From a bacterium (GTDB taxonomy: Bacteria > JAJVIF01 > JAGGVT01), in assembly GCA_021157815.1 (NCBI GenBank), contig JAGGVT010000189.1:1-25727 (forward strand): a stretch of 25,727 nt of DNA, written 5' to 3'. Under the pieces are notes generated by a model that was given only the letters and a program-made list of their open reading frames with translations, did no database searches and was not told the origin of the DNA. How positions within the stretch are numbered: the stretch's first letter is position 1; every line of letters begins with the position of its first letter. Both the position numbers and the translations under genes were made by a program. This document shows positions 7,883 through 16,862 of the stretch, piece after piece.

Positions 7883-8304
7883 AGAACATAATAATGAATA
7901 TTCGTAAATAATTTAATAATTGCAGGGGCACAACATAGAATTTGCCTCAGAACCTTCAAACAGCACGAAAAACGTTATATCGAATTACGCGTTATGTAAA
8001 ATTACACGTCATTCCCGCGAACGGGGCTGTTGAAAAAGGGCTGAATGTAGGGGGTAGGTCTCTGTGCCTACCCTAAATATTGGCATAAATACAGGGCAAC
8101 CACAGAGAGTTGCCCCTACGGTCTGGGATATAATGGGCTTTTTCAACAGCCCCGTTCGCGGGAATGACAGAATGACGAACTTATATGTTCTGATGATGTT
8201 CTGAAACAGCCTCCACGTTGTGCCTCTACTTTGTATCCTACTTGCACCTTGCATCCCCACTTGATGCTGTAACCCCGTTATTTTCATGATATACTGCACT
8301 GCTG
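7883..8304. other. Gap of 422 bases occupied mainly by a MITE
   Basis: No gene is visible. Positions 8008-8168 are the complete MITE described separately. The rest is unstructured sequence leading to the secreted AMIN-like protein. A minus-strand open frame across this gap is just the translated MITE: the same peptide appears in the copy near 14830. Confidence 0.6.
8008..8168. mobile_element. MITE family 1, complete copy (161 bp, 31-bp perfect inverted termini)
   Basis: The termini 8008-8038 and 8138-8168 are perfect inverted copies of 31 bases. Each has an outer REP-like word GTCATTCCCGCGAAC and an inner GGGGCTGTTGAAAAAG. Inside are two hairpins, GGGTAGG/CCTACCC (8052-8058, 8067-8073) and GGGCAAC/GTTGCCC (8094-8100, 8109-8115), framed by GTAGGGG/CCCCTAC. 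No coding capacity is present, so it would have to be moved by a transposase encoded elsewhere. Related copies occur at 14831-14960 and 25601-25727, both in the opposite orientation to this one. Confidence 0.8.
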
Positions 8305-13717: not shown

Positions 13718-14443
13718 ATGCGGACACTTTTTGCCATATCGATTTTCGTATTGTGCATCATTGCCTGGCTGAATCTATCGCTTGTGCCGTCGCGAAACCG
13801 GCAGGCGAAGGAAATAGTTGACCGCCATCTTCATTCGCTTCCGCTGGCTGATATCGAGGAAGTTACATATACAGGCAACATGTCACTGTTCAGGAATGAT
13901 GTACATGTTGACAATCTGCATGTAAAGGCTAAAAACGCACATTGGAACCATATCCAATACAGCGATATAACTCTGGATGTCGCCCGTATCGATTATGATG
14001 CCACATCCGCTTTCTGGCACAAGCGTTGTACGATAAATGCGATATCGGGGATTAGGTTCAGCGGATTCATGACATATGATGAAATATCCTCACGGCTTGC
14101 TGACGTCAGCGTTAATCTTGTTGATCCTGTACTGCGATACAGGGATGGGCATTTGTATCTTCGAGCGTATTTTTCACCTGTAAAAATGAGTTTGGATTTT
14201 GATGGCGAAATGGTTCTTACTCCAAAAGGGCTGTTGGAATATCGAATTGAGAAAATTCTTGATGTTGACGGGAATGAAATATCTCGAAACATGAACAGGA
14301 CTGTGCTTAACGAACCATTCGATTTTAGTGTTCAAATATTAATAATGCGCAGGGAAATCGCTCTTGATGATATCGAGGCAACCAGCGATGGTGTCAGGAT
14401 TTCAGGATGTTCGATTGATGATGAGGATGCAACTATCGAATGA
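13718..14443 (+). CDS. DUF2993/LmeA-like envelope protein
   Basis: This 241-residue protein has an N-terminal signal anchor (about residues 3-22) and then a beta-rich periplasmic domain. It resembles DUF2993 (LmeA, phospholipid-binding) proteins in the repeated pattern of short strands (IEEVTYTGNMSLFRNDVHVDNLHV, ISGIRFSGFMTYDEISSRL, DGHLYLRAYFSPVKMSLDFDGEMVL) and a final strand with a VRISGCSI word. LmeA-like proteins bind phospholipids or polyprenyl lipids at the membrane. The assignment is by pattern only. The ATG is preceded by TGCTATCAT, possibly an extended -10, so the message might be almost leaderless. The last 11 bases overlap the end of the convergent cysteine-rich gene. Confidence 0.6.
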   Translation: MRTLFAISIFVLCIIAWLNLSLVPSRNRQAKEIVDRHLHSLPLADIEEVTYTGNMSLFRNDVHVDNLHVKAKNAHWNHIQYSDITLDVARIDYDATSAFWHKRCTINAISGIRFSGFMTYDEISSRLADVSVNLVDPVLRYRDGHLYLRAYFSPVKMSLDFDGEMVLTPKGLLEYRIEKILDVDGNEISRNMNRTVLNEPFDFSVQILIMRREIALDDIEATSDGVRISGCSIDDEDATIE

Positions 14444-14747
14444 CACAGCATCCGCCGGGAATGCAGCAGAAATCGCAAATCGCCAGATTACATAAACACT
14501 CACCCAGATTACCTGAACAACATGGACAGCAGCAGCAACTGATCTCGGGTTCCTCGTAATAATCCCCGTGCTCATCCGTGCGTTTCGTTCTAATCCTGAA
14601 GAATTTCAACACAGCGGGATGTGACGGGTCAATAGACAACGCTTTTTCAAAAGCATGTCTCGATTGCAGGTGAAGTCCGCGATTTTGGAGAGTAATCGCT
14701 GAATCGATCAATTGCGAAATATCATTTGTGTTTTCGTATGTAGCCAT
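14433..14747 (-). CDS. Small TPR-like protein with cysteine-rich C-terminal tail
   Basis: The 104-residue protein starts with one TPR-like helix pair (about 10-50: SAITLQNRGLHLQSRHAFEKALSIDPSHPAVLKFF). A charged linker leads to a tail with 13 cysteines in 31 residues (71-101), ending CDFCCIPGGCCVIR. The last 11 residues equal those of the J-domain protein at 14995-15951 (FCCIPGGCCVIR versus LCCIPGGCCVIR apart from the first), and the DNA there is also nearly identical over about 33 bases, so the two are related by duplication. AAGGAGG precedes the ATG by about nine bases, which supports a real gene. Its end overlaps the convergent DUF2993-like gene by 11 bases. Function is unknown; the tail could bind metal or be membrane-associated. 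Confidence 0.75.
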   Translation of the reverse strand: MATYENTNDISQLIDSAITLQNRGLHLQSRHAFEKALSIDPSHPAVLKFFRIRTKRTDEHGDYYEEPEISCCCCPCCSGNLGECLCNLAICDFCCIPGGCCVIR

Positions 14748-14830
14748 TTGTTTGTTGCCTCCTTCTTTTCCCCCCTTAATCCCCCGCGAGCAGGGGAAAC
14801 AATTATCAAATTTATGGTGCAGGCATCTTG

Positions 14831-14960
14831 GGCTTGTTGAAAAAACCCATTATATCCCAGACCGTAGGGGCAACTCTCCGTGGTTGCCCTGTATTTATGC
14901 CAATATTTAGGGTAGGCACAGAGACCTACCTCCTACATTCAGCCCTTTTTCAACAGCCCC
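14831..14960. mobile_element. MITE family 1, degenerate copy with possible target duplication
   Basis: This is inverted relative to the copy at 8008-8168 and shares nearly all of its interior (the GTAGGGGCAAC and GGGTAGGCAC hairpins). The ends are the inner terminus only, GGCTTGTTGAAAAA on the left and TTTTTCAACAGCCCC on the right; the outer GTCATTCCCGCGAA word is absent. ATCTTG occurs immediately on both sides (14825-14830 and 14961-14966), consistent with a six-base target duplication. It lies between the J-domain gene and the small cysteine-rich gene. Confidence 0.7.
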
Positions 14961-14994
14961 ATCTTGCCTGCACCACAACAACATCCTGTATATT

Positions 14995-15951
14995 CTATCT
15001 AATCACGCAGCATCCGCCGGGAATGCAGCATAAATCGCAAAGCATGGCGCAGCATAAGCAGTCTGTCATGCCGGGACAGCATCCGCATGAGAATCCGCGC
15101 CGCTGATAATACTGCTCGCGCATATTCTCCCTCATGTTCTGCTGGTTCATATACATACGCACCGATGGATGATCCGGATTAACTGACTGCGCATGATCCG
15201 CGACACTTCTTGCCCTGATATGCTGTCCGACCATATGCAGAGCGGATGCCAGCCCTATCAGATATTGCGGATTATCGACATCGAGATTAGTCGCTTTTTC
15301 AATATCACGAATCGCCAGACGCGGATTTCGCATCGAAACATAACAAGCGCCGCGATTGAAATGATAAACCGCGTTGTTCGGTTCAATTCGAATCGAGTTG
15401 CCAAGTGAATAGATCGCCCCGCGATAGTTTCCAGTCTCGATATATGCCATCGCCTTGAGGTTATGCGCGCCGGCATCATCGGGAGTCAGCCGTAGAATCT
15501 GGTCGAGTATATTTATCGACTGCGTATATTTCCTGCCGTTAAACAGATTCAGCGCCTTGTCGCGAAGGTCGCGCATTCTTGCCGGGTCAGCGCCGTAGTA
15601 TTCGCTCTGTTCGCCCCAGTCATCCGTATATGCGTAGCCAGTGTCAGCCTGATGATATTGTTTGTAATATGAATCCTGAGGCGGTTGATATGATGGTTGC
15701 GGCGGCGGTTGTGAAGGGGGAGGCGCTCCACGCATTCCGCCTGAATCATACTGGCGTCTGCTCGACGGGTCTTTTAAAGCCGAGTATGCCTCGTTTATCG
15801 ATTTCATCCGCTCCTCAGCCAGATGAGCCAGCGGATTGTCCATGTGGCGGTCTGGATGAAATTCCAGCGCGAGTTTCTTATACGCCGATTCAATCTCGCG
15901 TTGTGAGGCATTTCTGCCGACCCCAAGGATATCGTAATAATCCTCCGCCAC
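14995..15951 (-). CDS. J-domain / TPR protein with cysteine-rich C-terminal tail
   Basis: The 318-residue protein begins with a J-domain (YYDILGVGRNASQREIESAYKKLALEFHPD..., HPD at 32-34), which stimulates DnaK-type ATPases. A Pro/Gln/Tyr-rich linker (about 75-120) follows, then three to four TPR units (about 125-262) for protein binding. The tail has 11 cysteines in 27 residues (289-315), ending LCCIPGGCCVIR. It lacks the zinc-finger and C-terminal substrate domains of true DnaJ, so it is a specialised co-chaperone. It starts at GTG (15951), which overlaps the TAG of the upstream DUF5685 gene by one base, with AAGGAGG ten bases before, so translation is coupled. Client and chaperone partner are unknown. 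Confidence 0.9.
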   Translation of the reverse strand: MAEDYYDILGVGRNASQREIESAYKKLALEFHPDRHMDNPLAHLAEERMKSINEAYSALKDPSSRRQYDSGGMRGAPPPSQPPPQPSYQPPQDSYYKQYHQADTGYAYTDDWGEQSEYYGADPARMRDLRDKALNLFNGRKYTQSINILDQILRLTPDDAGAHNLKAMAYIETGNYRGAIYSLGNSIRIEPNNAVYHFNRGACYVSMRNPRLAIRDIEKATNLDVDNPQYLIGLASALHMVGQHIRARSVADHAQSVNPDHPSVRMYMNQQNMRENMREQYYQRRGFSCGCCPGMTDCLCCAMLCDLCCIPGGCCVIR

Positions 15952-16862
15952 TATATTGCCGCCTCCTTCATTTTGCAGTATTCAGGTTTCTTCCTGCCAA
16001 GCGCTTTGAAAAACGAGAATTCAATCGAACGTCCGTAAATTCCTTTTATAAGCTGCTCGTTTCTTTTTAATTCCAAATTTTGAAGTGAGATCGCAAGGTC
16101 ACATGAAAGCTGTTTGACAAGGTAATCGATATCATCCGATGCGTTTTTACGAATCACCGTTGGTTTTCTTGAGCCGTTGGCGTATATGTGAGCAAGCGGA
16201 TTGAATCGATTGCGCTTTAAATCCGCGGGTAAATCCTCCAGCATGTCGATTAAATCGATAGACCGTCCAAGATTTTCTCCAAGTTTAACCAGCTCAGTTT
16301 CCATATCCTGCCTGCCGGATATATGTGAAATCGATTTGCCTATTTCACCAAACAGTAGCGCGGATGACTCGAGCGATTCATCGAGCCATTTGAAATCGTT
16401 TGTGTTTCGATCAGCGACAAGTTTTTTTGCCAGTTCAAAATCAAAATTGATTTCAAGCATTTTTTGTTTGATTTCTTCATTGTCGATTCTGAAAGCCTTC
16501 TGGAACATTTGTGCCGGAAGACGTTTCAAACCGCGCTCATCATCGAGGTCATCGGATGCTTTCAAATGCATGAGGCATAAATAGAGGTCGATTAAATCAC
16601 TAATCCATTTTTGGTCAAATACGACATAGTTACGTTTCCCGATTCCCTTAAATGGGCATCGCAGCGCTGTTTCCTTAGGGGAGGAATCATCAAGAGAGAG
16701 CAAAAGCGCTGCCGCGGCAGTGAATTCATATGACAGCACAAGACGTCCTTTCGCACCGAATCTGTCCGCCAACGCATTGCACGCGCCGCAATAGACCGAC
16801 TGGTACAGGTTAAGTGAATCCCTGTCGTTTTTGTGGAAATATCCTCGAAGGCGTCCGAACAT
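15951..16862 (-). CDS. DUF5685 family protein, possibly isoprenoid-synthase-like fold
   Basis: This 303-residue mostly alpha-helical protein resembles DUF5685: an N-terminal MFGRLRGYF, then LYQSVYCGACNALADRFG with Cys25 and Cys28, LSYEFTAAAALLL, and RCPF with Cys69. Two acidic helices stand out: SDDLDDERG (103-111) and LIDMLEDLPADLKRNRFNPL (204-223), with Asp206, Asp210 and Asp214 spaced four apart. The second closely resembles the NxxRDxxEDxxxGRxYLP helix of squalene/phytoene synthases, and the first their DDxxD-type helix, so a prenyl-lipid or metal-dependent role is conceivable; this is inference. The family has no established function known to me. It is first in an operon with the J-domain protein, overlapping it by one base. 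Confidence 0.75.
   Translation of the reverse strand: MFGRLRGYFHKNDRDSLNLYQSVYCGACNALADRFGAKGRLVLSYEFTAAAALLLSLDDSSPKETALRCPFKGIGKRNYVVFDQKWISDLIDLYLCLMHLKASDDLDDERGLKRLPAQMFQKAFRIDNEEIKQKMLEINFDFELAKKLVADRNTNDFKWLDESLESSALLFGEIGKSISHISGRQDMETELVKLGENLGRSIDLIDMLEDLPADLKRNRFNPLAHIYANGSRKPTVIRKNASDDIDYLVKQLSCDLAISLQNLELKRNEQLIKGIYGRSIEFSFFKALGRKKPEYCKMKEAAI

Follow-up and report, generated by a model that had tools for sequence, protein, structure and literature searches.

DUF5685 proteins, one of which is encoded by a three-gene locus in the 25,727-nucleotide (nt) stretch of contig JAGGVT010000189.1 analyzed here (the window), appear to be a family of unrecognized enzymes with a predicted class I isoprenoid-synthase fold. 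At this locus, the DUF5685 gene is accompanied by genes for a J-domain protein with TPRs and a cysteine (Cys)-rich C-terminal tail (J-TPR-Cys protein) and for a small TPR-like protein that ends in this tail too. Open reading frames (ORFs) and Pfam matches agree with a preliminary description, which had recognized these three genes. The Cys-rich tail is a near-constant companion of DUF5685, and the J domain is optional. We consider it almost certain that the tail is functionally coupled to DUF5685. The best overall explanation, to which we assign a probability of about one in three, is that DUF5685 acts as a prenyl-diphosphate enzyme working with the Cys tail, with S-prenylation as its simplest form. 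The preliminary description knew of no function for this set of genes; the literature searched likewise gave no functional account of DUF5685, its sole mention being in a domain list.

Predicted fold and conserved residues of DUF5685

The window protein scored 126.1 bits against PF18937, compared to a gathering cut-off of 26.7, and is thereby a DUF5685 member. An AlphaFold (AF2) model of DUF5685, built from a 64-sequence alignment, reached a pLDDT of 90.4 and a pTM of 0.89. When this model was searched with Foldseek, the top 50 matches were all isoprenoid or terpene synthases, the best being MoeN5 (probability 1.00, E value of 3e-3). The VIA search was equally uniform, with isoprenoid synthases in 50 of 50 rows and a best Z score of 16.2 (root mean square deviation of 3.4, 249 residues). 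Structural matches included MoeN5, polyprenyl diphosphate synthases, CrtM, and squalene synthase. On this basis, it is very likely that DUF5685 has the class I isoprenoid-synthase fold.

Two Asp-rich motifs, resembling the first (FARM) and second (SARM) aspartate-rich motifs, are conserved in the family (Table 1). In the model, the first forms the C-terminal end of helix 84-108 and the second lies near the end of helix 185-216, an arrangement that corresponds to that of the isoprenoid-synthase superfamily. Profile-profile comparison of DUF5685 with SQS/PSY yielded a P value of 8.5e-4 and aligned the Asp motifs of both families with each other, whereas reversed profiles gave P values of 0.22 to 0.31 and seven unrelated families gave 0.036 or worse. 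We regard the predicted fold, the active-site-like Asp motifs, and the conserved Cys residues as supported. DUF5685 thus shares with class I isoprenoid synthases (trans-isoprenyl diphosphate synthases, SQS/PSY, and MoeN5) the predicted fold, two Asp motifs in the same order at helix ends, and a near full-length alignment. It differs from them in its N-terminal YCGxC helix, a beta-hairpin carrying the third invariant Cys, and its Cys-tail partner. Moreover, neither of the Pfam models SQS_PSY and polyprenyl_synt matches it. No Pfam match to SQS_PSY (PF00494) was obtained for the window protein, which at E values of 1 or less matched DUF5685 alone, and the family was also absent from those listed for 64 DUF5685 homologues. 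A DUF5685-profile search of Protein Data Bank (PDB) sequences returned nothing beyond helical repeats of designed proteins and further helices judged spurious.

The preliminary description had viewed DUF5685 as an alpha-helical partner awaiting maturation. The predicted isoprenoid-synthase fold and the Asp motifs point elsewhere; DUF5685 is more likely an enzyme with the tail as its substrate or partner than a protein that is being matured. These findings suggest that, although the fold is known, the family is new, as is the kind of partner that accompanies it.

The Cys-rich tail accompanies DUF5685 in trans or in cis

A genome scan detected at least 542 DUF5685 relatives, and the best 80, all of clostridial type, were examined for their neighbors. 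A J-domain protein directly followed DUF5685 in 73 of the 80 loci, mostly with overlapping or abutting genes, so that adjacency to J-domain proteins, proposed earlier as a check, is the rule. The HPD motif was present in 70 of these 73 partners. At least four Cys residues within the last 35 positions were found in 72/73 of them, compared to 34/773 other ORFs on the same loci. Three loci (L049, L061, and L104) lack a J domain and instead harbor a TPR-Cys protein of approximately 130 amino acids (aa) directly upstream of DUF5685. Altogether, a Cys-tailed partner adjoins DUF5685 in 75/80 loci, 72 with and 3 without a J domain. Two of the 80 loci end at a contig edge. The genomes of L038 and L111 encode a full-length J-TPR-Cys protein elsewhere (E values of 4e-73 and 4e-63), and two Coriobacteriia-like genomes likewise carry the gene away from DUF5685.

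Co-occurrence was assessed in an even sample of 249 genomes from a single phylum, of which 26 contained DUF5685 and 223 did not. At a threshold of E < 1e-30, a full-length J-TPR-Cys protein was found in 12 genomes, all of them DUF5685 positive (12/12), and in none of the 223 DUF5685-negative genomes. Reading of the 26 DUF5685 loci revealed 17 with J-TPR-Cys, 4 with TPR-Cys lacking the J domain, and 1 with a tail in cis; no tail was seen in 3, and 1 was a fragment. TPR-Cys proteins without a J domain occur at seven clostridial-type loci altogether.

In Actinobacteria, DUF5685 was found in 18 of 296 genomes; the group labels used for them here are our reading of genome size and content. Small-genome, Coriobacteriia-like members have J-Cys partners, in part of these genomes beside DUF5685. 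In large-genome, Streptomyces-like members, DUF5685 itself carries the Cys tail as a fusion. Such cis tails were present at 10 actinobacterial loci, and more were found in other lineages of a 385-genome sample (L016 to L018 and L020 to L022) and at L211. A full-length J-TPR-Cys protein was not found in the cis-tail genomes G308, G334, G248, G130, and G266. The alternation of the tail between trans and cis and its co-occurrence with DUF5685 are therefore supported across lineages. Because TPR-Cys proteins without a J domain and cis tails exist, the tail rather than the J protein is the core partner, and the J domain as an essential partner is ruled out. Of the dedicated J/Cys complex envisaged in the preliminary description, the tie between DUF5685 and a Cys-tailed partner holds, as does the presence of such tails in other genomes; the J domain proved dispensable.

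Some further observations concern individual genomes. In the genome of L038, the J-TPR-Cys gene adjoins a gene for a 587-aa Hsp70-family protein rather than DUF5685 (L172:3656-6139). Clostridium sp. DSM 8431 carries two DUF5685 copies in one strain (L036 and L043); the partner of one has a degenerate HPD motif and a poor tail and is possibly decaying. DUF5685 is also present in Thermotoga maritima.

Proposed mechanism and alternative explanations

In the mechanism that we propose, DUF5685 and the Cys-rich tail would form one unit. The tail would either belong to the enzyme itself, in cis, or be carried in trans by a TPR adaptor that may or may not have a J domain. The two Asp-rich motifs would hold Mg2+ and prenyl diphosphate, and the thiolate of a tail Cys would attack the allylic carbon. 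As a speculation, this thiolate might be activated by a metal bound at C25, C28, and C69; a Zn-activated thiolate is used by eukaryotic Cys prenyltransferases (PMC13290415). The S-prenylated tail would anchor the TPR/J adaptor to the membrane, and the J domain of the anchored adaptor would recruit Hsp70. We infer each of these steps, from the enzymatic activity and the use of prenyl diphosphate to membrane anchoring and Hsp70 recruitment. Membrane targeting, which the preliminary description had raised, is plausible for this set. A role of the tail as prenyl acceptor is possible but doubtful. The most specific version, in which DUF5685 would be the founding family of bacterial protein Cys prenyltransferases on an isoprenoid-synthase fold, acting on a C-terminal Cys string of the J/TPR adaptor or on itself, seems somewhat unlikely.

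DUF5685 resembles the trans-isoprenyl diphosphate synthase (trans-IDS)-like peptide prenyltransferases ComQ, PalQ, and ChrPC in its isoprenoid-synthase fold, here predicted, and in having a polypeptide partner. ComX, the partner of ComQ, is encoded beside it. That trans-IDS-like enzymes can prenylate a polypeptide is exemplified by ComQ and PalQ (PMC13290415). ComQ-type Trp prenyltransferases have in common a Gln directly before their second Asp motif (PMC13290415), whereas the corresponding position 205 of DUF5685 is hydrophobic in 11 aligned diverse sequences, and the tail of its partner is Cys rich.

Several observations weigh against S-prenylation of the tail or the fold on which it depends. 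We know of no Cys-modifying enzyme of the isoprenoid-synthase fold. For all trans-IDS-like peptide prenyltransferases that have been characterized, the target residue is Trp (PMC13290415). No Cys tail was seen near DUF5685 in G053, G733, G836, and G904. The Streptomyces-like cis tails are long and Asp/Gly rich, with a metal-binding rather than lipidated appearance. At L017 and L018, a likely transmembrane stretch comes before the tail, which could be extracellular, and L016 and L022 already have such a stretch. With regard to the fold, no sequence family besides DUF5685 scored above its own cut-off for the DUF5685 protein, the Foldseek E values all exceeded 0.001, and, by VIA's own caveat, unrelated helical folds can reach Z scores of about 14. 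Since the helical background of VIA is high and the Foldseek E values are weak, the unanimity of the matches, together with the Asp motifs, was given more weight than the scores.

As a tentative alternative, DUF5685 may synthesize small-molecule isoprenoids, for instance by coupling prenyl chains like MoeN5 or SQS/PSY, with the tail serving only as a membrane tether or scaffold and the J/TPR protein as a dedicated chaperone or adaptor. The closest fold matches (MoeN5, polyprenyl diphosphate synthases, and CrtM) are small-molecule enzymes, and the Asp motifs are intact. Half of the clostridial cassettes are followed by a membrane protein resembling the substrate-binding (S) component of energy-coupling factor (ECF) transporters, and a polyprenyl synthetase gene lies two genes downstream at L211. 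However, this explanation offers no reason why different phyla retain a Cys-rich tail, be it in trans or in cis, instead of some other anchor. Nor does it account for the finding that no full-length J-TPR-Cys protein was detected without DUF5685, and other conserved pathway genes were not found around the cassette.

It is also conceivable, albeit unlikely, that the tail binds a metal or Fe-S cluster and cooperates with the invariant C25, C28, and C69 of DUF5685 in metal delivery, redox chemistry, or stabilization, without any lipid. Some cis tails, such as CDCGNCCDCGNCCDC, have the look of metallothioneins, clostridial tails contain a mean of 7 Cys per 35 residues, and 25 loci encode a zinc-ribbon membrane protein upstream of the cassette. 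On the other hand, Leu, Gly, and Met are frequent in the clostridial tails, which are nearly devoid of Lys and His, Cys spacing is highly variable, unlike that of a defined site, and a metal-binding tail alone does not explain the conserved Asp motifs. It is improbable that DUF5685 is a pseudoenzyme that no longer catalyzes a reaction but holds a lipid or prenyl chain and brings in the tail protein: D214 is replaced by Asn in 6/74 sequences, but D104, D206, D210, and N221 are retained in 74/74 and D108 in 73/74, which is typical of an active site. Coincidental proximity of a J-protein gene in the same operon, for which the presence of DUF5685 in one of four genomes examined from the window's own phylum might be cited, is very improbable in view of the linkage in Clostridia, Coriobacteriia-like genomes, and the window's phylum, the tail fusions, and the strict co-occurrence.

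Should DUF5685 indeed prenylate the tail, this would be, to our knowledge, the first Cys prenylation system for bacteria's own proteins, and lipid-anchored J-proteins would have evolved independently in bacteria. They would be a bacterial counterpart of the farnesylated and cysteine-string J-proteins. Among eukaryotic lipidated J-proteins, CSPalpha/DNAJC5, with its palmitoylated cysteine string, and farnesylated Ydj1/DNAJA1 pair the J domain with a lipidation site that is either Cys rich or a C-terminal Cys. The DUF5685 partner similarly combines a J domain with a Cys-rich tail, for which lipidation is proposed, but it is bacterial, has TPRs between the two, and carries the tail at the extreme C terminus; no evidence was found for homology to these proteins beyond the J domain. 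Like bacterial class C J-domain proteins, it has an HPD J domain and lacks the DnaJ Zn-finger and C-terminal substrate domains, whereas the conserved TPRs, the Cys tail, and a fixed genetic partner set it apart. Even without tail prenylation, an unrecognized isoprenoid-synthase family with a dedicated co-chaperone would be new. A domain of unknown function that is found in numerous gut Clostridia, in actinobacteria of Coriobacteriia-like and Streptomyces-like type, and in further phyla becomes an enzyme family that can be tested and whose partner is defined.

Organization of the locus in the window

Positions refer to the window, in which all three genes lie on the minus strand (Table 1). The last base of the DUF5685 stop codon TAG is shared with the GTG start of the J gene. 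The tight linkage described earlier applies to these two genes but not to the small gene, which is separated from the J gene by 247 bp containing an approximately 160-bp terminal-inverted-repeat element. Likewise, of the strong ribosome-binding sites noted previously, AAGGAGG occurs approximately 10 nt upstream of the J and small gene starts, while no site of this type precedes the DUF5685 start. In agreement with the earlier view that the J protein lacks DnaJ substrate domains, Pfam detected only DnaJ and TPR-type families in it; no match to the class A/B features (CxxCxGxG zinc finger and C-terminal substrate domain) was obtained.

Table 1. Features of the DUF5685 locus
Feature	Position	Strand	Basis
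DUF5685 gene, 303 aa	15951-16862	minus	PF18937, E 2.2e-36
Invariant C25-x2-C28	16779-16790	minus	73/73 sequences each
Invariant C69, third invariant Cys	16656-16658	minus	74/74 sequences
First Asp-rich motif, D104-x3-D108, FARM-like	16539-16553	minus	D104 74/74, D108 73/74 sequences
Second Asp-rich motif, D206-x3-D210-x3-D214, SARM-like	16221-16247	minus	D206 and D210 74/74, D214 68/74 sequences
Invariant N221	16200-16202	minus	74/74 sequences
AAGGAGG ribosome-binding site of J gene, within DUF5685 gene	15962-15968	minus	Sequence
J-domain/TPR/Cys-tail gene, 318 aa, GTG start	14995-15951	minus	DnaJ, E 7.7e-23; TPR_2, E 1.2e-13
J domain with HPD motif, residues 4-69	15745-15942	minus	Pfam PF00226
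Cys-rich C-terminal tail of J protein, ending CLCCAMLCDLCCIPGGCCVIR	14998-15087	minus	Sequence
Miniature inverted-repeat transposable element (MITE)-like element, 33-nt terminal inverted repeats, 82% complementary	14812-14978		Repeat copies in genome
AAGGAGG ribosome-binding site of small gene	14758-14764	minus	Sequence
Small TPR-like protein gene, 104 aa	14433-14747	minus	Single degenerate TPR; TPR_1, E 0.037
Cys-rich C-terminal tail of small protein, ending CLCNLAICDFCCIPGGCCVIR	14436-14537	minus	Sequence

The tail pattern CDxCCIPGGCCVIR of the J and small proteins occurs only these two times in the whole genome, and the last 14 codons of the two genes are identical at 38/42 nt. Because of this, a duplication of the 3' end of the J gene probably gave rise to the small gene. 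The repeat inserted between the two is a MITE-like element, with about 40 near-full-length copies in the genome at 90 to 98% identity. A further copy is located in the window at 8023-8152 on the minus strand. An Rfam search of the window gave no match.

Other genes near DUF5685

A membrane protein of approximately 180 aa is encoded downstream, after the J gene, in 40/84 clostridial-type loci (e.g., L053:7699-8241). It is weakly DUF2232-like, and the fold predicted for it (pLDDT of 92.7) is similar to that of S components of ECF transporters (RibU, Z score of 9.8; ThiT, Z score of 7.3). The zinc-ribbon protein encoded upstream of DUF5685 is a small two-helix membrane protein with the ribbon at its C terminus (e.g., L010:401-796 and L126:2749-3198); it was also seen in one Coriobacteriia-like genome.

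Directly upstream of two Cys-tailed DUF5685 genes is a gene for a 386-aa protein without a Pfam family (L026:3252-4412 and L027:7515-8675), which contains an Asp-rich stretch similar to the second motif. As a second isoprenoid synthase, this neighbor (G130/G266) was rejected, given weak profile P values of 0.006 with DUF5685 and 0.21 with SQS and the lack of a Pfam match. IspH occurs near the cassette in few loci, mostly of one related group, and was not used as evidence because the synteny of this group is conserved through an AAA gene. A viral or plasmid origin of DUF5685 was also discarded, as no relatives were detected in three scans of viral_contigs or among plasmids; two "phage" matches were unannotated gut contigs with ordinary bacterial neighbors. 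At L028 (G053), where neither a Cys tail nor a J-Cys partner was found, DUF5685 is accompanied by ftsA and ftsZ. The polyprenyl synthetase gene of G829 (L211:4617-5564) is located two genes downstream of a Cys-tailed DUF5685.

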